A stretch of DNA of 41,126 nt, taken from positions 1-41,126 of the IMG/VR virus record IMGVR_UViG_3300048834_000619; one strand, given 5' to 3'. This DNA comes from a virus. Of the stretch, positions 5,413 to 41,126 are shown piece by piece. The position numbers and the translations under genes are program-made. Below the pieces are notes generated by a model. That model did not search any database. It had not been told where the DNA came from and worked only from the letters and a program-made list of their open reading frames with translations. How positions within the stretch are numbered: position 1 is the first letter of the stretch; every line of letters starts with the position of its first letter.

Positions 5413-5699
5413 CAGAACCCGACCAGTGGTGCGTCGACGGCGTGGTCGACGTGGAGGAGGTGGATCGGGAGGCCTCCCCAGGTGGAGAGCCAGAGGGTGC
5501 CGCCGCGAGCGAGGGCGGCGAGCTCGATCTCGTCGAGTTGCCAGGCCACACGGACCACCTGGGTCCCGTCGACCTCGGTGATGATGGCCGGGCAGGGCAC
5601 GACGTCAGGGCCCTCGGCCGGACCGCCGATGACCACCGCCCGGGGCCGTTGGTCGGCCCAGCGGTCGAGGCCGGCCTGGCCGGTGTCGACGGGTTCCAT
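5412..5699 (-). CDS. Small early protein, unknown function
   Basis: 95 residues starting MEPVDTGQAGLDRW, with a beta-rich middle (VVPCPAIITEVDGTQVVRVAWQLDEIELAALARGGTLWLSTWGG). The pattern '...LDEIELAALARGGTLWLSTWGGLPIHLL' recalls small conserved phage proteins of unknown role. The ATG overlaps the stop of the ParB-like gene (TGATG) and the stop overlaps the next ATG. Confidence 0.6.
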   Translation of the reverse strand: MEPVDTGQAGLDRWADQRPRAVVIGGPAEGPDVVPCPAIITEVDGTQVVRVAWQLDEIELAALARGGTLWLSTWGGLPIHLLHVDHAVDAPLVGF

Positions 5700-7699
5700 C
5701 AGGCGGCCGTCGTGCGGGTCTTGTGGGCAGGGCACACGAACCCGACGCCGTCGCCGTCGGGGCGGCGCTTGCGGCCCCAGCCGGCCTCCTTGGCCCGCTT
5801 GTGGGCGCCTCCGTCCCCGGGGAGCACCTCGGTGCAGTCGAGGTCCATGCAACGGTCCAGGGGCCGGTCGGCGTCGCAGGAGGGCAGTTCGGCGGCCGGG
5901 GGGAGGTTCTCTCCGTCAGGGTCGGGGCCGGGCTCGTCGGGGGTGTCGAGATCGAGTTCGGGCTCGGTCCAGGGCGGCTTGGCGGCATGGACGGCGGCGA
6001 GGACCTGGCGGCCGCTACCGGTGAGCCGGATCCGGACAAGGCCGGGTTCGGCTGGGCCGGCGTCGGACACGTCGGCCCAGCCGCGGGCCTCCATGTCGGC
6101 CGGGACCGACCCGGCCGGGAGAAGGAAGTCGGTGGTGGTCGGTTCGAGCTCGTCGAGGACGTCGGCCAGGTCCTCGTCGAGGTACAGCTCGTCGACGTCG
6201 ATGCCGGTGTGGACCGGGGTCCGGGCGGCTCGTCGCTCGCGGTCGCGGCGGTTCTCGTCGAGCACGTCGAGCTCGTAGGCCGTGGGCTCGTAGCCGAGGT
6301 CGATTAGGTGCTGGACGTGGTCGCACCACAGGTCCCGGTCGGCGTCGCCGGGGAAGGTGCGGCGGTGTTCGGCGTCGAGGGCGACGATCGCCCACGCCCA
6401 CCGCTGCTGCAGCTCTGGGTCGGTGCCGTCGGCTGCGGCAGCCTCCCAGGTGCGGAGGATCTCGTCGTTGGCCTCCCAGTCGGCGTCGGGGTGGGTTGCA
6501 TCTGGGACGACGAGGTCACCGATCGCTGCCCGGTCGGGGTCGCCGGCGTCCATGGTCCAGGTGATCAGCGTCCGGGCCACCATCGGTGGCATCGGGGTGA
6601 AGCGGTTGTCGGCGATCGCGGTGAGGAGGAACGAGTAGCGGGATTCGGCGGCTTCCTTGGCGGCCTTGGCGAGGGCGGCGCGCTCGGCGCGGTCGCGGGC
6701 CAGTGCGGCGTCGGCTTGGGCGTCCTCGTCGGCGGTGGCGACGAAGTCGGCGTAGAGCTCTTCGGGCACCTGCAACCCCGACCGGGTCACCCCGTTGTCG
6801 AGGGTGAGCGTGGTGTGGCGGGCGGGAGCGATGCACACACCGATTCGCTCCACTTCCCAGTCCAGAGCCGTGCCGGGCACCCGCTGGGGCTGCAGGTACA
6901 CGACGTGGCACTCCTCGTCGGCGTGGTCGACGCCGTCGGGCAGCTCACCGAACGAAGCGACGGTGACCGATGCGCGGTGCGGGGTGAACACGTTGGAGGG
7001 CCGCTCCCACGAGTTGGCGTAGCGGATCTCGACGAGGCCGGCCTCGTCGAGGTCTCGGCGGGCGGCGGTCATCGCCTGCTCCCGGGACCGGTCCGTGACG
7101 AACCGGTCGAGCTCCTGGGCCAGGTTCTTGCACGCCTTCGCTGGCAAGGCTGCGACGTGGGCCATCACTTCGGCGTCGTGCGCCCAACCCGCCAGGGTGG
7201 TGGCGTCAGCCAGGTTGAGCCCGTTCCCGAAGCGGGCCAGCACGGCTGGCGGGAGCATCACGAGATCGAGCCGTGAGCGAACCGTGGGCACCGATGTGCC
7301 GACCTTGCGAGCGATGTCGGCAACGGTGTATCCGCACTCCGACGCCAGGCGGGCGAACGCCCGGCCCTCCTCCACCGGAGTGAGGCCGACCCGCTGGCAG
7401 TTCTCCACGAGCATCAGCTCGAGGATCTCCTCGGTCTTCAGGTCCTCGACGATGCAGGGCACCTCGGCGAGCCCGGCGACCCGGGCGGCTGCGAGCCGGC
7501 GGTTGCCGGCCACCACCAGGTGCACATCGTCATCGCTCGGTGGAAGAACGATCAGCGGGGTGCGCATGCCCATCGTGGTGATCGTCTGCGCCAGCTCCAA
7601 CACGTCGCCGACGTCGGCGCGGATGTTGTCGGGATGGTTCTCGATCGAGTCCACCGGCAGGTAGACGATGACCTTCTCGGCCGTTGCAGTCGGGGTCAT
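5699..7699 (-). CDS. Large ParB/Spo0J-family protein
   Basis: 666 residues. Residues 10-100 form a ParB-type N-terminal domain with VVAGNRRLAAARVAG (63-77; the usual GERR is GNRR here) and VENCQRVGLTPVEEG (98-112); 123-145 is a helix-turn-helix (YTVADIARKVGTSVPTVRSRL). ParB proteins bind centromere-like DNA and act as CTP switches; relatives in phages include nucleases and transcription regulators. The remaining 500 residues are unusual: a long helical/acidic region and a C-terminal Cys/His-rich end (LDCTEVLPGDGG...GFVCPAHK), which may bind zinc. The ATG at 7699 overlaps the preceding stop (ATGA). It is the largest early gene. No parA neighbour, so a regulatory or replication role is more likely than partition. 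Confidence 0.8.
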   Translation of the reverse strand: MTPTATAEKVIVYLPVDSIENHPDNIRADVGDVLELAQTITTMGMRTPLIVLPPSDDDVHLVVAGNRRLAAARVAGLAEVPCIVEDLKTEEILELMLVENCQRVGLTPVEEGRAFARLASECGYTVADIARKVGTSVPTVRSRLDLVMLPPAVLARFGNGLNLADATTLAGWAHDAEVMAHVAALPAKACKNLAQELDRFVTDRSREQAMTAARRDLDEAGLVEIRYANSWERPSNVFTPHRASVTVASFGELPDGVDHADEECHVVYLQPQRVPGTALDWEVERIGVCIAPARHTTLTLDNGVTRSGLQVPEELYADFVATADEDAQADAALARDRAERAALAKAAKEAAESRYSFLLTAIADNRFTPMPPMVARTLITWTMDAGDPDRAAIGDLVVPDATHPDADWEANDEILRTWEAAAADGTDPELQQRWAWAIVALDAEHRRTFPGDADRDLWCDHVQHLIDLGYEPTAYELDVLDENRRDRERRAARTPVHTGIDVDELYLDEDLADVLDELEPTTTDFLLPAGSVPADMEARGWADVSDAGPAEPGLVRIRLTGSGRQVLAAVHAAKPPWTEPELDLDTPDEPGPDPDGENLPPAAELPSCDADRPLDRCMDLDCTEVLPGDGGAHKRAKEAGWGRKRRPDGDGVGFVCPAHKTRTTAA

Positions 7700-7995
7700 G
7701 AGGACTGGTCCTTTCGTTGTTCGAGTACTCGGGCCACCAGCACCGGCCACCCAGTGGCTGGGGTCACTGGCGCGTCGGCGGGGACGTGGCACCACGTCCC
7801 GTCAGCGGCCACCAGCCAGGCGTCGCCGGACTGAGCCGCCAGGTCGCCGGCGACGTGAGCGGCGAGCGCCAGGTGAGAGATCGGGCCGTACACGGTGCCG
7901 TCGGGGTCGCGGGCTTCCCACGGGCCGGCGGGATGGTCGGGCAGCGGATCCCAGAGGCGGAGCTGGCCCGGCGGCGGGCAGCAGACGGCGGTCAT
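7696..7995 (-). CDS. Small early protein, unknown function
   Basis: 99 residues, MTAVCCPPPGQLRLWDPLPDHPAGPW... followed by a compact domain that includes GTVYGPISHLALAAHVAGDLAAQSGDAWLVAADGTWCHVP. No family recognised. The ATG at 7995 has GGGGGAG 6-7 bases upstream. It starts after a 41-bp gap from the cupin gene, one of the few spacers in this operon, and its stop overlaps the ParB-like ATG. Confidence 0.6.
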   Translation of the reverse strand: MTAVCCPPPGQLRLWDPLPDHPAGPWEARDPDGTVYGPISHLALAAHVAGDLAAQSGDAWLVAADGTWCHVPADAPVTPATGWPVLVARVLEQRKDQSS

Positions 7996-12582: not shown

Positions 12583-13191
12583 ATGAACCGAACCATCCGA
12601 ACGCGCACCGTCGGCGGCCCGACGGCAAGACCGGTCGGGCGTCCGGTCAGGCTCGCCCTGGCCGGTGTAGCGGCCGCAGCCTTGGTTATCGCTGGCTGCG
12701 GCGGTGACGGCGATTCCGAGAGTGCAACGACGACAACGGTAGAAGCGGCCACCACGACGACGGGGAGCGAAGCTCCGGCCACCGCCGAAGATGAGTCGGC
12801 GGCGATACGAGGGTGGGCGAGCGACCTTGCCCCCGTGTTCGCCGCGTTCCAGGAGTCGTCTGAGGCCATCAGCACCGGGTGTCGCATGGTCCCCGAGGAC
12901 TGCAGCACGGCCGAGGTGATCGGGCGCATCACGGTCGGCCTCAACGCCGAGCGGATCCAGCTCGAACTCGAACTCACCGAGGAAGCCCGAGGTGCCCCGC
13001 CGGGCGAGATCGAGGACCTGGTCGCCACCACAGCCGACGCTGCCGACGCCGTGAAGTCCAGCTACGACGCAGCCGACGCCGAGCAATGCCCGAACGACGG
13101 AGCCAGCCCGTGCCGCGAGCACCTGGTTGAGTTCGCCCGAGCCGTCTCCGACATGGACGACGAGCTCGTCCGCTGGAGCCCGTACCTGTGA
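12583..13191 (+). CDS. Lysogenic-conversion lipoprotein candidate
   Basis: 202 residues. A basic N-terminus, a hydrophobic stretch (LALAGVAAAALVIAGC) and a lipobox (VIAGC, Cys39) make it a type II signal-peptide lipoprotein; mature sequence begins CGGDGD, followed by a Thr/Ala-rich linker and a helical, acidic domain with two Cys pairs. ATG at 12583 lies just after a G-rich stretch (GGGGGG). It is the second gene of the repressor operon, so it is likely made in the lysogen and displayed on the cell surface; superinfection exclusion is a reasonable but unproven role. Confidence 0.7.
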   Translation: MNRTIRTRTVGGPTARPVGRPVRLALAGVAAAALVIAGCGGDGDSESATTTTVEAATTTTGSEAPATAEDESAAIRGWASDLAPVFAAFQESSEAISTGCRMVPEDCSTAEVIGRITVGLNAERIQLELELTEEARGAPPGEIEDLVATTADAADAVKSSYDAADAEQCPNDGASPCREHLVEFARAVSDMDDELVRWSPYL

Positions 13192-13258
13192 GCACCCCGG
13201 GATCCGTCCGCACGCTCAGTGCCCCAGCTCATGCCTACCGGCCATCCCTGTCGCGCAC

Positions 13259-14311
13259 ATGACGGACCGGCTCATCCAGAAGCACTCGCTGCAGCGGTCG
13301 GACGGCGAGCTCACCTTTGACGAACGCGGCGTCGTGACGGCGGCCGGAGACTTCGCCGCCACCTACATCACCAACGGGCGGTGGAAGGGCCGAGCAATTC
13401 CAGATCACGAGCTGGAACACATAGTCACCGACGCCTTTCCGGATGGCGACTGGCGCACGCCTCCGCGGTCCAGCGGGGCTCAGGAGCAGGCCCGCCAGCA
13501 CACGCTGGACTTCATGGCAACGGTTCGGGATCTCGAGGGCGTGACGTCCCCGAGCGACGAAACGCTGGCGTCGGCGACCGGTCGACACATTTTGGACGTG
13601 CGAAACCTTGCCAGATTGCTCGCAGATGCCGGCCACCTCGAGATCGTCGAGCACGGCGAGCACCCCAACGATCCGTTCGCCGATGCCAGGCTCACAGCGG
13701 CCGGAGCCGCTTGGCTAGCTGAGGAGCGCCCAGACGCTGGCACACCATCGCGAGGCCCTGAACCTCCCTCTGAGCGGCTCGTCTTCTTCATCACACCCCT
13801 CGGCAAGGAGGGGTCACCTCAGCGCGTGCGGTCCGATCAGATCATGCGCGAAGTTCTCCAACCAGCGCTTGACGACCGGAACACCAAGCACCCCAGCGGC
13901 CCTCCGCTCCGTGTGATCCGATCCATCGAGAGCGACGCTCCGGGAGACGTCACCACCCAGATCGTCCAGGACATCTGGCGGTCGGCCTTCGTGGTCGTTG
14001 ACCTGACCGGGCACAACCCGAACGTGATGTACGAACTCGGCTTGGCCGATGCTCAGGCGATTCCGACGATCCGGCTGACATCAGACCTCCAGCAGTGGTC
14101 CTTTGACCAGGTCACGATGAACGCCATTGAGATTCCCGGTAGCTCCGAGACCGGGGCCATCCGCAAGGCCGAGTCCAAGCACGCGATGGAGCGAGTCTCC
14201 GGGCAGATCGACAGGGTTTTGGCCGCTGGCTTCCAACTTCACACCGCAGTGACGGCCGCCGGCTTTGGCCGCGAGGCCTATCGCAAGGACCACGAGGCCC
14301 ACGGCCGGTGA
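13259..14311 (+). CDS. Winged-helix plus TIR-like/nucleoside-deoxyribosyltransferase-like protein
   Basis: 350 residues from ATG 13259. Residues 95-155 form a winged-helix-like module (SDETLASATGRHILDVRNL...LTAAGAAWLAEE). Residues 173-290 are an alpha/beta domain with SERLVFFITPLGKEG at the start and DLTGHNPNVMYELG (248-261) later, the signature of predicted TIR-like/nucleoside 2-deoxyribosyltransferase-like proteins; Glu259 is the likely catalytic acid by analogy. Such domains act as nucleotide or NAD-cleaving effectors in anti-phage defence (established for several TIR families). The stop overlaps the GTG of the HNH gene (GTGA), implying a two-gene unit. No strong ribosome binding site precedes the ATG. 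Defence role is inference. Confidence 0.65.
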   Translation: MTDRLIQKHSLQRSDGELTFDERGVVTAAGDFAATYITNGRWKGRAIPDHELEHIVTDAFPDGDWRTPPRSSGAQEQARQHTLDFMATVRDLEGVTSPSDETLASATGRHILDVRNLARLLADAGHLEIVEHGEHPNDPFADARLTAAGAAWLAEERPDAGTPSRGPEPPSERLVFFITPLGKEGSPQRVRSDQIMREVLQPALDDRNTKHPSGPPLRVIRSIESDAPGDVTTQIVQDIWRSAFVVVDLTGHNPNVMYELGLADAQAIPTIRLTSDLQQWSFDQVTMNAIEIPGSSETGAIRKAESKHAMERVSGQIDRVLAAGFQLHTAVTAAGFGREAYRKDHEAHGR

Positions 14312-15039
14312 ACTCCGCCCGCTTGCCTTGCCTGGTCTGTCGGACTACCACAGGTCGGTACAGCTCCCAGGAGCACATCATCCCCGAGGCACTCGGGAAC
14401 ACCACCCTCGCCCTCGACCGTGGCGTGGTCTGCGACCGGTGCAATAACGGCAAGCTCTCGGTCCTCGACCAGGCCCTCGTCGACTTCCACCCGATCAAGA
14501 TGACCCGCGCCTTCTACGGCATCCAAGGCAAGACCGGGAAGCGCCCCCAAGCACGGTTCACGATGGGCACCCTCGGCCACGACGACAACGGCGTCATCGA
14601 TCTCACGCTCAACCAGGGGGCCGAACGGGGCACCTTCCTGCCCTACACGACGGCCGAGGGCGACCCCGGCTTCAGGCTCAACACCGGTGGTGGCAGGCGC
14701 CTCACCCCGAAGTACTCCGCCCAGCTGGCAGCCGCTCTCCTCAAGATGGGACTCGAGGCCGCCCACCTCGACCACGGCACGGTGATGCTCGCACCCCAGT
14801 TCGACCACGTACGAGCCGCGATCGTCGGCCAACCCACCGGGCCCAGGAACCTGGTCGTCGCCCGCTTGTCGAAAGCACCCCGGGCGCGGGTCGAACTCAC
14901 CTACTTCCTCACGCCACAAGGCGGGGGGTCGATCCTCGTCGGGTTCGAGTTCTACGGCATCGCCCTGTTCACCCACAGCCTCCACGAACTCAAGGTCACC
15001 GGGCCGTTCGACGCCAACTCCGACGTGCACCGATTCTGA
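14308..15039 (+). CDS. HNH_5-type endonuclease-like protein
   Basis: 243 residues. The N-terminal 50 residues carry CLVC (Cys8/Cys11), SSQEHIIPEALGN (Glu22-His23) and VCDRCNN (Cys42/Cys45-Asn46), the pattern of HNH_5 nucleases. The remaining 190 residues form a long domain with no recognised motif, more than a homing nuclease needs. The GTG at 14308 overlaps the stop of the TIR-like gene (GTGA), so both are likely one unit and one mechanism, for example effector plus nuclease or sensor. It ends 50 bp before the convergent restriction-methylation gene. Confidence 0.7.
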   Translation: MNSARLPCLVCRTTTGRYSSQEHIIPEALGNTTLALDRGVVCDRCNNGKLSVLDQALVDFHPIKMTRAFYGIQGKTGKRPQARFTMGTLGHDDNGVIDLTLNQGAERGTFLPYTTAEGDPGFRLNTGGGRRLTPKYSAQLAAALLKMGLEAAHLDHGTVMLAPQFDHVRAAIVGQPTGPRNLVVARLSKAPRARVELTYFLTPQGGGSILVGFEFYGIALFTHSLHELKVTGPFDANSDVHRF

Positions 15040-15089: not shown

Positions 15090-17645
15090 TCAGTCTCCAC
15101 CGACAGCTTCGACCTCCCGGGCGATCAGGTCGGCCTGAGACCGAAGCTGCGACCGCACTGTCACGGTCCTCTGGGTGGTCTCCGCAATCCGCGCCCGGTC
15201 AGATTCGTCCCGGGGGATCGGCAGCTGCAGCTCCAGGAGTCGGCTCCCCAAAGTGTCGATGATGTCCTGCGTGAACTGCTTGGACCGGATCTGCCGCTTC
15301 ACGATCGGCGCATTGAGCGAAGCGAACAGCAGCCAGGGATCGATTTTCAAGCGGTCCAGCACCCGGATACGGAAGATGTGGCTCTGGAAGAGCATGGGCA
15401 GGTCGTACTTGGTTACCACTGCACAGGTGCCAATGAGGTAGGTCCCGTCTCTGACGAGGAGGATGTCGTCCTGCTCGACATCGCATTTGCCACGCAAGGA
15501 CATGTAGAGAGATTCACTGACGCCCTGCTTGGCGTCGCTCTTGAGCTCCCAGTTCGAGATGTCAGAGGTTCTGATGAACGGCACTGGGCCGGTCCCGTAC
15601 GCCATCTTGCCGACCTCGATCCCCGTACCAATGCTGACCGCGTCCGCCGCTACGAGCTCGCCCAGCGTCACCAGGTCGTGGGTCTTGCGCAATGTGGCAA
15701 TATTCTTCTTCAGATCCGGGTCGTAGTACTTTGGCACGAGAATTTGGTTCTGGACGTCCTTCTTGTCGAGGACGTAGCCCAGGTGGTCGGTGGTCCTCAG
15801 CTTCCCGGCCTGGTGAAGTTTGAACCTCTCAGCAACGATCGGTACGTCGTCCATGAGCCGGGCCACGCCCTTCTCGTCTATGCGTACGGTTCGGTTGCCG
15901 CGGGAATCATGCCCGCACCACTTGGCGTCAGCCATGAAGATCTTCGACGTGCCAGGAGTCTTTCGCAGCAGAAGTACGCACACCTTGGCGTGAGTGCCAC
16001 CCTTGCCGCTTGTCTTGAAGAGAGCCTCCGGCAACGTGACCACTGCCTCGATAGTGGTCCGCTCTTCGAGCCACCGCAACACATGTTGATAGGACGGGTT
16101 CCCGAGGATGCTCTCCGGGAGGACGATTCCTAGCCGGCCATCGGGCTTGAGGAGCTGTAGGCACCGTTCAAGGAACAGCAGTTGCGGCGGTTGGTCTGCC
16201 TGGAGCGTCGTGGTCAGCTCCATCGCGCCGGACGAAGTGTCGCGCTTCCAGCGATGGCCGAGGTCGTACTGGCCGAGCAGGGGTGCCCCTGTGATCTTGA
16301 TCTTCTTGCCGAAGGGCGGGTTCGTCATCACTACGTCGAAGGAACCGAGCCCGATCTTCATCTGGGCGGCGTACTCCCACTCGGTGGGCGCCTGAAGGCT
16401 GTTCGAGCAGAAGACGCCCCCCTTGCCGTCGCCCACAATTGCCATGTACGCCTTGGTCACCTTGGCGAGAAACGAGTCCTTGTCCAGGCCGCGAAACGTC
16501 TTCGTGGCTACGTCCCGCTTCTTTCGGTCGAGTTGGACATCAGACCACCCCATCTCCTCGGCCTGGCGCTCCAGCTTGCTCCACACGTGCTCAAGAGCTG
16601 CGATGAGAAACCCACCCGATCCACAAGCCGGGTCGATGATCATCTCGCCTGGCTCGGGGTCCAACATCTCAATGACCATCCGCACCACGTTGCGAGGCGT
16701 GAAGAACTGGCCCTCCGCACCGCGGAGCGCAGGGCCGATGAACACCTCAAACGCGTCCCCAATGGCATCACGGTCGGCCTCAGTCACACAGTAGGTCTGA
16801 AGCTCGCCCACGACATAGGCAATGCTCTGACGATCCAGCGTGATCGAGTCGCTCTCGGTGAAGACCTCGTTGTACTCGGCCTTGACCTCCTTGAAGAGCT
16901 GGAGAATCCGCTTCTCGATTGCCTCGGCATCCTCGCCTGGCCCGGCCCGGAAGGTGACGTTGTCGTTCTGGCGCGTGTTCAGCTCGTCAAAGATTTTGCA
17001 GAACAGAATGTTTACGATTTCCTGTGCCAAGGCCTCGTCGCGTGTGATGCCTGTGACGTTCCCCGCCAAGTGGTTCCGCAAATCACGGAAGACGGCCTTC
17101 AGATTGGACGGCTTGACCAGATCCTTTCTGGTGTACTTGCCGACGTCATCGACCTCCTGACCGAACCGCGGAATATTCGGAAGCACTTCGTAGACGCGCG
17201 TGCCATCTGGCCGGAAGACCTTGCGTAGATACTCGTGGTCCTCACCGTTGAACCAGATCCCGATCTCCGCAGACGGGCTCATGTCCATGTACAGCCTTAG
17301 CTGCATGATGCCGTCCCTGCGGCTTTTCCGCTTGCACTCGATGAGGATGCGTGCGTTGTCCTCTCGGTGCTCGTGCGAGTCGAACACAGCGATGTCGACC
17401 GGGTAGCTCTTCGCCTTGTCGCTCGGCGACTTCCTCACACGGAACTGCGGCCGCGTCTGCACGTGATCCTTCGGGTAGTGGAAGTCCTCCACGAGGCGAC
17501 GAGCCATCACCTGGACCGCCTCGCGCTCCTCTGGGGTGTCGCGTACGGGCAAGCCCGAGATGAAGTCCTCGAGGTAGCCATCGGCAGGCATGCCGGGGAT
17601 CTCGGGCATGTCCTCATCGACCTCACCGTTGAGATCGTCAGTCAC
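15090..17645 (-). CDS. Single-polypeptide restriction-methylation-specificity enzyme
   Basis: 851 residues if started at GTG 17645 (GGGGGAG just upstream); ATG 17699 would give 869. Residues 35-160 form an HsdR N-terminal-like nuclease domain with VDIAVFD (Asp84) and LIECKRK (Glu103-x-Lys105), a PD-(D/E)xK signature. Residues 170-640 are an HsdM-type N6-adenine methyltransferase with DPACGSGGFL (338-347) and NPPF (442-445). The C-terminal 200 residues resemble one HsdS target-recognition domain. There is no helicase/translocase, so it looks like a type IIG-like enzyme. It lies downstream of, and on the same strand as, the integrase; a defence role in the lysogen is inferred. Confidence 0.75.
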   Translation of the reverse strand: MTDDLNGEVDEDMPEIPGMPADGYLEDFISGLPVRDTPEEREAVQVMARRLVEDFHYPKDHVQTRPQFRVRKSPSDKAKSYPVDIAVFDSHEHREDNARILIECKRKSRRDGIMQLRLYMDMSPSAEIGIWFNGEDHEYLRKVFRPDGTRVYEVLPNIPRFGQEVDDVGKYTRKDLVKPSNLKAVFRDLRNHLAGNVTGITRDEALAQEIVNILFCKIFDELNTRQNDNVTFRAGPGEDAEAIEKRILQLFKEVKAEYNEVFTESDSITLDRQSIAYVVGELQTYCVTEADRDAIGDAFEVFIGPALRGAEGQFFTPRNVVRMVIEMLDPEPGEMIIDPACGSGGFLIAALEHVWSKLERQAEEMGWSDVQLDRKKRDVATKTFRGLDKDSFLAKVTKAYMAIVGDGKGGVFCSNSLQAPTEWEYAAQMKIGLGSFDVVMTNPPFGKKIKITGAPLLGQYDLGHRWKRDTSSGAMELTTTLQADQPPQLLFLERCLQLLKPDGRLGIVLPESILGNPSYQHVLRWLEERTTIEAVVTLPEALFKTSGKGGTHAKVCVLLLRKTPGTSKIFMADAKWCGHDSRGNRTVRIDEKGVARLMDDVPIVAERFKLHQAGKLRTTDHLGYVLDKKDVQNQILVPKYYDPDLKKNIATLRKTHDLVTLGELVAADAVSIGTGIEVGKMAYGTGPVPFIRTSDISNWELKSDAKQGVSESLYMSLRGKCDVEQDDILLVRDGTYLIGTCAVVTKYDLPMLFQSHIFRIRVLDRLKIDPWLLFASLNAPIVKRQIRSKQFTQDIIDTLGSRLLELQLPIPRDESDRARIAETTQRTVTVRSQLRSQADLIAREVEAVGGD

Positions 17646-17760
17646 GGCTCCCCCATGCAGGGCATCGTAGTTGGCTCCCAGCTCTTGGCGCGAGGCCATG
17701 CATCGTGAGGCATGGCCTCGCGGTAGGCGAGCCGCCCGGTCCGCGACTTCGCCAGAAGGG

Positions 17761-19017
17761 TCAAGATGCAGACCCTGCAGCATGGCTGGGATCAAGGAGC
17801 TCGCTCGCCCGCAACGCTGTGGCCGCAGGGCGGGTGCCGAGATCTTGGACGTAGCGGGCGGTGGTGGCGGGGTCGGTGTGGCCGACGTGGCGGGCGATGT
17901 CGTCGATGGGGACGCCGTCGACGTAGAGGGCGGTGACGGTGGAGCGGCGGCCGGTGTGGGTGCCGATGCGGTCGGGGTCGATGCCGGCGCGCTGGCAGGC
18001 GTCGTTGAGGGCCTGCTGGACGTTCTGGCGCTTCGCCAGGGCACCGGCGGGGGTGGTGAACACCAGATCGACCAGCTCGCCCTCGTAGCGGTGCTGGGGC
18101 CAGCGCTTCCCGGCCTTGGCCTTCTCGGCCTCTTGGGCGACCCGGCGGGCTTCGAGCATGGTGACGGCCGTGGGGGCCAGGTGGTGAACGCCGGCGGTGG
18201 CCGTGGTCTTGAGGTTGTCGAGACGGGCGCCCACTCCACCGCCCTCGTAGGTGCACCCTCGGCGAAGGGTGGCGGTGCCGGTGCGGGCTTCGACGTCGAG
18301 GTCGAGGTCGGACCAGGCGAGGCCGAGCGCCTCGTTCACCCGGATGCCGGACGTGAACAGAAGGCAGATGGCGGCGTCGTAGCGGCGGTCCGGGCCCAGC
18401 GCGCCGAGAAGCTGGCGGACCTCGGTGGCGGTTAGGACCCGGCGGCGGGTGCGTTGCTCGGCGGGGGCCTTGGGGGTGCGCACGGCGGAGACGGGGTTGT
18501 GGGTGAGGTAGCCGAGCTCGACGGCGGCCTGGGCGATCTGGCGGAGTCGGGCCCGGGTGTTGGTGATGGTGCCGGCCTTACGGCCGTCTCGGCGCAGCTC
18601 GGCCAGCAGCGACCGCACGGTCTCGATGTCGAGTTCGGCGATCGGCAGGCCACCGATCTTGGCGTTGATGCGCGCCACGTCCTTGCCGTAGGCGTGGAGC
18701 GTCGACGGCCGCACCGTCGCCGCCGCAACGTCTTCGAGCCACCAGGTGGCCACCGCCGCCACCGTTGGGTCGGTGCCAAGCCGGCCCGACGGCGTGGCCC
18801 GCCGGGCGGCCTCGAGCTTGGCGTCACGGCGCGCCGCGGCCTCGGCCTTCGTGCGGCCCGACACGGTACGGCGCTTGCCGGCAGCGTCGAAGTAGGTGGC
18901 CTTGTACACGCCACGGTCGGCCACCCAGTAGATCGACCCCTCGCCGTTGCCGGCCTTGTCGGCCACCTTCAGCTCGCCGTCGCCGTCGACGAAGCGCTTG
19001 CCCTGACGTCGTGCCAT
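17761..19017 (-). CDS. int: Tyrosine integrase
   Basis: 418 residues catalysing site-specific recombination between attP and a host attB. Arg226 (SGIRVNEAL), Lys270 (NLKTTAT), His354-Arg357 (THTGRRS), His380 (HVGH) and Tyr389 (TTARYV) form the catalytic set. The N-terminal 90 residues form an arm-binding-like domain, followed by a SAM-like core-binding domain. The ATG at 19017 has GGGAGGTG 5 bases upstream; a more upstream start at 19059 would run through the attP arm repeat. Candidate attP sites lie just upstream (19036-19253). Its stop lies 115 bp before the restriction-methylation gene. Confidence 0.92.
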   Translation of the reverse strand: MARRQGKRFVDGDGELKVADKAGNGEGSIYWVADRGVYKATYFDAAGKRRTVSGRTKAEAAARRDAKLEAARRATPSGRLGTDPTVAAVATWWLEDVAAATVRPSTLHAYGKDVARINAKIGGLPIAELDIETVRSLLAELRRDGRKAGTITNTRARLRQIAQAAVELGYLTHNPVSAVRTPKAPAEQRTRRRVLTATEVRQLLGALGPDRRYDAAICLLFTSGIRVNEALGLAWSDLDLDVEARTGTATLRRGCTYEGGGVGARLDNLKTTATAGVHHLAPTAVTMLEARRVAQEAEKAKAGKRWPQHRYEGELVDLVFTTPAGALAKRQNVQQALNDACQRAGIDPDRIGTHTGRRSTVTALYVDGVPIDDIARHVGHTDPATTARYVQDLGTRPAATALRASELLDPSHAAGSAS

Positions 19018-19035
19018 GCCCACCTCCCGGCCGCT

Positions 19036-19057
19036 GGGTAGCAACCAGGGTAGCAAC
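19036..19057. promoter_or_regulatory. attP arm-type repeat, left
   Basis: Two GTAGCAAC units spaced by 12 bp, together matching 19232-19253 at 20 of 22 positions. It lies 19 bp upstream of the integrase ATG. Arm-type sites for a tyrosine integrase are typically paired like this around the core, and an arm next to the gene could also let the integrase repress its own promoter. Confidence 0.6.
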
Positions 19058-19110
19058 ACTCAGTGACACTCAGGGATGGCCGAGGATGCCCGGCACCGCT
19101 GAACCGTTGG

Positions 19111-39932: not shown

Positions 39933-41126
39933 TCAGGTGAACGCCGCCTCACGGCGCCGCCGGCGGCGCAGGGCGCCCTTGGCCACCGCGTCGGATGCTG
40001 CGGTGTGGGCGAGGATCCCCGCCATGCGGGCGTCGATCTTGAGCGGCGACTTCGGGGACCGCTTCTGGATGATCCACAAGAACTTGCCCTTGCCGTCGCG
40101 CAAGGTGATCTGTTGGCGTTGGGCGTTCAGGTGGTGGGCGGTGAGCACCGGGTCGCCGTCGTGGGTCATACCGCCCGGGCGCAGCTGCTGGTCGAAGGCC
40201 TGGATCGCCTCGGCCATCGGGCGGGGCCTGTTCGTCCACCACTTGCGCACCGTCCCGTACTGGCCGTCCCAGCGGTCGACGGCGTCTTGCCAGTACGGCG
40301 GGTCGCAGTAGGCGAGCTCGACCCGCCAGGTGTCATAGGCCCGCTCCATGGCGGCGTCGACCTCGTGCTCGGGAACTTCCCAGTCGTCATCGTCAACGTC
40401 GGGCGGGCGCTCCCACGCCTGGATCAAGAACTCGTGGCGGTCCTCGAGGCGAACCCCGACCAGAGCGGTCGAATCATGGAACCGAGCGCCGTCGAACCCC
40501 ACAGCGATCTGGTCACGGCCCTTCGGGACCGTGAGGCCATCAGGGTGTCGCAGCCCAGCCCACTGCGGGGCCTCCCAGGCTGCGTCGGATCCGGCCCACA
40601 CCTCGTTGAGGAAGAACCGGCGGTAGTCGGCCTCGGTGTTCTCCGGGTCGTCGAGCTCGTCGACCAGGCGGTCGATGTTCACCCAGTGGCAGTCGACGTA
40701 GAGCCGCTTGAGCGCAGCCCGCACCGACCGGCGGTTGGTGAGGCGCTTCACGTGCCGGGCCTGGGGCTTCCACTGGTAGACGTCGGCCGGCTTGTGCTTG
40801 GCCACCCGCTCGTCGGTGAGCTGAGCCACCGAGTTGAGCGACGGGTCGTAGGCGTTGGTGGTCTCCAGGGTGGAGCCGTCCATCTTCGCCGTGTTGCGGT
40901 TGAGGGTGCGGGACAAGGCTCGGCCACCGTTGCTGGGCAGCCACAGGTGGGTCTCGTCCTTCACCGCGAACACAACCGGCTGGCCCTCACGGGCGCCGGC
41001 GGAGGCGGTCACCTTGTCGATGCGGGCCCGGTGGTTGTCGCGTCGCAGCGTGCGGGTGTCGCCCACGTCGAGGCCGAGCAGATCAGCTGCGGCCCCGTCG
41101 TCCTCGGACAGCAGCTCGAGGAGAGC
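39933..41126 (-). CDS. terL: Terminase large subunit, remainder (5' end lies at 508, across the join)
   Basis: This is the main part of the large terminase. A Walker B-like stretch (VVFAVKDETH, Asp/Glu at about residues 184-185 of the joined protein) is followed by a C-terminal region that starts with a nuclease-type motif (VGFDGARFHDS, Asp at about 339). This is the usual ATPase-then-RNase-H-fold nuclease order. An in-frame GTG at 41066 could look like a start, but the frame is open upstream through the join to the coupled GTG at 508. It stops 18 bp before the portal GTG. The first 127 bases duplicate positions 1-127. Confidence 0.9.
   Translation of the reverse strand, partial: ALLELLSEDDGAAADLLGLDVGDTRTLRRDNHRARIDKVTASAGAREGQPVVFAVKDETHLWLPSNGGRALSRTLNRNTAKMDGSTLETTNAYDPSLNSVAQLTDERVAKHKPADVYQWKPQARHVKRLTNRRSVRAALKRLYVDCHWVNIDRLVDELDDPENTEADYRRFFLNEVWAGSDAAWEAPQWAGLRHPDGLTVPKGRDQIAVGFDGARFHDSTALVGVRLEDRHEFLIQAWERPPDVDDDDWEVPEHEVDAAMERAYDTWRVELAYCDPPYWQDAVDRWDGQYGTVRKWWTNRPRPMAEAIQAFDQQLRPGGMTHDGDPVLTAHHLNAQRQQITLRDGKGKFLWIIQKRSPKSPLKIDARMAGILAHTAASDAVAKGALRRRRRREAAFT
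41000..41126. repeat. Terminal direct repeat, copy 2
   Basis: Exact copy of bases 1-127. Removing one copy gives a 40,999-bp circle. It lies inside the large terminase gene, in the ATPase half of the protein downstream of the Walker A motif. Confidence 0.93.

Follow-up and report, generated by a model that had tools for sequence, protein, structure and literature searches.

HaeIV, a Type IIG/IIB enzyme of organisation 2 R~M~[TRD], carries a nuclease, a methyltransferase and one target-recognition domain (TRD) in one chain, and has been suggested to work as a homodimer that reads a symmetric interrupted site (PMC3874165). In the Type IIB enzymes BsaXI and BcgI an RM chain is accompanied by a separate S protein with two TRDs. 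The single-chain Type IIB enzymes TstI and AloI hold all functions in one polypeptide with two TRDs per RM, at about 1250 aa for the AloI type, and a rule of one RM per TRD has been formulated (PMC3874165). The conversion of a two-TRD S subunit into a half-S fused to the RM part has until now been argued from engineered enzymes (PMC6158711).

The enzyme analysed here comes from virus record IMGVR_UViG_3300048834_000619, whose 41126 bases make up the window, that is, the whole stretch of DNA studied. It resembles HaeIV in having nuclease, methyltransferase and one TRD in one chain, a likeness of organisation drawn without sequence comparison, and its gene is phage-borne. The order of nuclease and methyltransferase is that of BsaXI and BcgI, and the gene layout of these two is that of the split relatives of the phage enzyme. 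In the phage enzyme itself S is halved and fused to RM. Like TstI and AloI it is a single polypeptide, but with one TRD and 851 aa. A phage-borne RM relative at 36% identity occurs in the Mycobacterium phage prophiGD51-2 (genes 13, 12), where the RM gene and its downstream gene are two separate genes lying between primase and terminase, away from the integrase. We give a probability of roughly 80% to the reading that the protein is a complete Type IIG/IIB restriction-modification enzyme of HaeIV organisation, acting as a homodimer on an interrupted palindrome and carried as recent cargo by a temperate phage. The enzyme itself is of a known kind and one more case of it, adding to the examples a complete restriction-modification system that consists of one gene and is carried by a phage; its interest lies mainly in a recognition part that is one module and fused here, and two modules and separate in its split relatives.

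Genomic setting

The following features define the locus.

1 to 127, no strand: terminal direct repeat of 127 bp, with an identical copy at 41000-41126 (end-to-end comparison)
15090 to 17645, minus strand: single-chain restriction-modification enzyme, 851 aa, nuclease, methyltransferase and one TRD (ORF, Pfam, structure model, Foldseek)
17689 to 17722, no strand: perfect inverted repeat, 13-bp arms and 8-bp spacer, terminator or attP candidate (repeat search)
17761 to 19059, minus strand: tyrosine integrase, motifs SGIR, HTGR, HVGH and ARY present (motifs and Pfam)

With the same repeat at each end the record is probably complete, and it encodes phage TerL, portal, scaffold, major head, tail and tape measure proteins. 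The earlier note had given the enzyme these coordinates and this strand and had placed it beside a phage integrase on the same strand, which is what we find: 115 bp separate the integrase stop (17761) from the GTG start of the enzyme (17645), a start codon that is uncertain, with ATG 17609 and ATG 17699 as alternatives. The GC content of the enzyme gene is 60.5%, against 70.0% (s.d. 1.0) in other stretches of equal length in the record. Because the lowest value among such stretches elsewhere is 66.6%, the gene is probably foreign to its phage and a recent acquisition. The host of this temperate phage is probably actinobacterial, judging from the high GC, the relatives of the portal protein and the tree of the RM part. 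A related phage has ~77% nucleotide identity across the structural genes, over a compared stretch that ends short of the integrase region. The same phage that has the integrase also encodes a ParB-like protein of 698 aa (5699-7795, minus strand).

The inverted repeat between the two genes has no second copy as written in the window, nor in 100 shuffles of it. Its arms and spacer have a 13-8-13 geometry, the same as that of loxP. No T-tract terminator was found at the repeat, the pattern occurs in no viral contig of the collection searched, and the attB-like 21-base pattern is present in 0 of 396 Actinomycetota genomes. Judged by its form, the repeat may mark the end of integrase transcription, as a terminator lacking a T tract, or may be the attP core. 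If it is attP, integration would part the integrase from the enzyme gene and leave the latter at the far end of the prophage.

On the other side of the enzyme gene lie two plus-strand genes. The C-terminal part of the first product (13127-14311) bears a weak resemblance both to TIR effectors (PADLOC, E 6e-8) and to nucleoside deoxyribosyltransferases (Pfam E 0.04); the protein has remote matches in Streptococcus and Staphylococcus phages, and its gene may be another defence gene. The second (14308-15039) encodes an HNH_5 endonuclease and begins within the last bases of the TIR-like gene; no match to it was found in the phage collection.

Structural model

The AlphaFold model of the enzyme was built from 16 diverse sequences and replaced a first model from 7 similar sequences that was poor (pLDDT 46). 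For the single chain of 851 aa it reaches a mean pLDDT of 85.2 and a pTM of 0.79, and contains the nuclease core, the methyltransferase, the TRD and a final helix of 35 residues. The best Foldseek match in PDB is BsaXI (E 6e-24), followed by the Type IIG enzyme BpuSI as the next protein. BsaXI is also the best sequence match in PDB, in an alignment that is strong only over the methyltransferase part. The likeness to BsaXI holds domain by domain, since superposition of the whole chains is loose (TM 0.38, rmsd 31 Å).

Recognition domain and subunit arrangement

15249 to 15773, minus strand: single TRD, residues about 625-799, equivalent to one half of an S subunit of Type I-like kind (aligned to two-TRD S proteins; weak MAD5 match)
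15102 to 15206, minus strand: long C-terminal helix, residues 814-848, predicted dimerisation zipper (model secondary structure; role after PMC3874165)

A single TRD had been proposed for the enzyme, and the alignments bear this out: its S unit is single, where the S proteins of its split relatives carry two. In the five split relatives analysed (L008, L011, L018, L022 and L045) an S protein of 490-496 aa comes after the RM frame, and each of these S proteins contains two successive stretches that align with the half-S of the phage enzyme. The fused relatives, by the same kind of alignment, have the S unit once. The single-TRD claim rests on these alignments with two-TRD S proteins; BLAST self-comparison, which detected no internal repeat in any chain, the two-TRD S proteins included, is not evidence on TRD number. 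One TRD per chain is the HaeIV-like organisation, and the occurrence of two TRDs in split pairs and one in fused relatives fits the rule of one RM per TRD.

By that rule a fused protein with one TRD would be expected to work as a homodimer that reads an interrupted palindrome, and by analogy with the described enzymes this is probably what the phage enzyme does. The modelled C-terminal helix is compatible with a homodimer on a symmetric interrupted site, dimeric enzymes of this sort having a long helix (PMC3874165). We think it unlikely that the enzyme works instead as a monomer, or in the manner of MmeI, on a continuous asymmetric site. Several Type IIG enzymes with a single TRD, Eco57I and MmeI among them, do bind continuous sites (PMC3874165); however, the TRD here is of the Type I S kind, being the unit found in two copies in each S protein of the split relatives, and the chain ends in the long helix, as in dimeric enzymes.

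The mechanism that we propose for the homodimer is as follows. Two copies would pair through the C-terminal helix into an (RM)2S-like unit, which would read an interrupted palindrome and methylate one adenine per half-site; at unmodified sites the enzyme would cut at fixed distances outside the site.

Nuclease domain

17169 to 17537, minus strand: nuclease domain, residues about 37-159, with D84, E103, K105, Q115 and Y119 (Pfam, alignment, model)

Pfam HSDR_N_2 matches residues 44-159 with 39 bits (cut-off 25). The earlier note had named D84, E103 and K105 as nuclease residues, and they stand exactly where it put them; the HsdR-like PD-(D/E)xK nuclease has D84 and E103-x-K105 and, in addition, Q115xxxY119. 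In the alignment, D84 is invariant across the 38 relatives that keep the N-terminal part, and E103, K105, Q115 and Y119 are each kept in 35 of them. The conservation of these residues, which spans several phyla of relatives, is far beyond chance. The nuclease core, whose lack in a structure prediction would have spoken against the reading of the earlier note, is present in the predicted structure: residues 38-132 follow the helix-strand order of the PD-(D/E)xK core, mostly at pLDDT 82-93, with a lower value (71) at residues 71-80. A weak profile alignment (2.3 bits), a hint, sets D84 opposite D90 of BsaXI, a residue required for cutting, as its alanine mutant no longer cuts (PMC11997821).

Methyltransferases on their own are common in phages, and the enzyme might likewise serve in practice only as a methyltransferase that marks phage DNA against host restriction, its nuclease domain being structural or too weak. 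In keeping with this, three relatives are without the nuclease motif and in five the alignment begins only shortly before the methyltransferase part. We nevertheless regard it as improbable: D, ExK and QxxxY are intact in the phage enzyme and kept in 35/38 relatives, and the nuclease core is modelled with confidence. Protective modification by mobile elements has been discussed (PMC12707154).

The three relatives that have lost the motif (L033, L060 and L064, 3/38) are, from their sequences, possibly methylation-only or partner-dependent forms. The other five (L014, L023, L025, L057 and L059) are without the nuclease domain, and the one on an Acinetobacter plasmid (L014) has a 386-aa gene, without a Pfam match, directly upstream.

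Methyltransferase domain and enzyme class

15846 to 16775, minus strand: adenine-N6 methyltransferase domain, residues about 291-600, DPACGSGGF at 338 and NPPF at 442 (Pfam, alignment)

The HsdM-type methyltransferase that had been recognised from its DPACGSGGF and NPPF motifs is also found by Pfam, N6_Mtase matching residues 291-599 with 126 bits (cut-off 20). Neither a helicase nor a translocase family is detected by Pfam anywhere in the chain, so that restriction, modification and one recognition unit, the last seen by alignment, are joined in one chain that lacks a helicase, as had been claimed. Type IIG enzymes combine an N-terminal PD-(D/E)xK cleavage domain with a gamma-type adenine methyltransferase in a single chain and have no ATP-dependent helicase/translocase; the phage enzyme shows this make-up, the helicase/translocase being absent by Pfam. 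Type I and Type ISP were considered and rejected, as the helicase/translocase was not found by Pfam.

It is highly improbable that the enzyme is a piece of the MADS defence system, or works like it as a MAD2 methyltransferase fused to a MAD5 specificity protein: MAD2 and MAD5 are homologous to its RM part and, weakly, to its S part (NCBIfam NF047738, 402.8 bits over residues 22-600; NF047740, 44.9 bits over 629-833), and RM proteins at 35-37% identity to it score nearer MAD2 (608-674 bits), but its own scores lie far under the curated cut-offs of 720 (MAD2) and 400 (MAD5), on which membership was rejected, no further MADS component was matched by any of the six window proteins, its neighbours among them, that were scanned with NCBIfam, and no partner gene is common to the relatives compared. 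Our literature search found no paper on MADS with MAD2.

Proposed role in the lysogen and first entry

The earlier note had suggested that the enzyme could be made in the lysogen, where it might shield the host from other phages and mark phage DNA. As a Type IIG/IIB enzyme with both activities, the protein would be phage cargo that most plausibly helps the lysogen resist competing phages, a benefit that we infer from carriage alone. No paper on phage-encoded restriction with superinfection was found in the literature, and a consensus search gave no sigma-70-type promoter for the enzyme gene.

At first entry the host DNA is unmodified. This problem is real, and published Type IIB behaviour offers a generic answer by analogy: methylation takes place at single sites, whereas for cutting several subunits must bridge two sites, and in the single-chain TstI methylation of unmodified sites roughly keeps pace with their first cleavage (PMC4027205). 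Given this behaviour and few enzyme molecules early in infection, methylation could outrun cutting.

Relatives and the fused and split forms

The search of a genome collection gave ten loci, nine of them at 58-65% identity over most of the protein or its split parts; the match to the tenth (L010) covers its C-terminal half. The close relatives occur in Mycobacteriaceae, Nitrospirota, Chloroflexota and Verrucomicrobiota; among the 289-400 genomes sampled from each phylum, matches to the full length or to the RM part are uncommon. One relative, L009, is from Mycolicibacterium sp. CR10. In a quick tree built from the RM part the phage enzyme stands next to two Mycobacteriaceae proteins (L003, from Mycobacterium sp. 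E3251, and L005; support 98), and on this tree at least three switches between the fused and split layouts are required. The RM parts of the fused L004 and the split L008 and L011 are about 78-94% identical by domain, and these natural pairs permit a direct test of how a two-TRD S gives way to a fused half-S.

In the core group, near copies left out, the S units are 44-67% identical, and the methyltransferase parts of those compared 59-73%; the S unit of the phage enzyme is 24-30% identical to those of the distant members L012, L020 and L030. The S-unit sequences suggest half-sites common to the core group. Should the TRD classes seen here be constant in specificity, the sites of enzymes from several phyla would be predictable from a single methylome.

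No conserved partner gene stands beside the relatives compared. Neighbours are shared within one lineage only, with two exceptions: the integrase, which lies beside the gene both in L022 and in this phage, and a regulator common to L011 and L022. Searches of viral contigs with the enzyme protein alone returned nothing, and with the integrase no relative. Phage-borne relatives, which are few in the collections searched, were found by alignment-based search of viral contigs. Besides the prophiGD51-2 relative (L013) there is one in a Helicobacter heilmannii prophage (L012); L018 lies between terminase and portal genes, and L022, as noted, beside an integrase.
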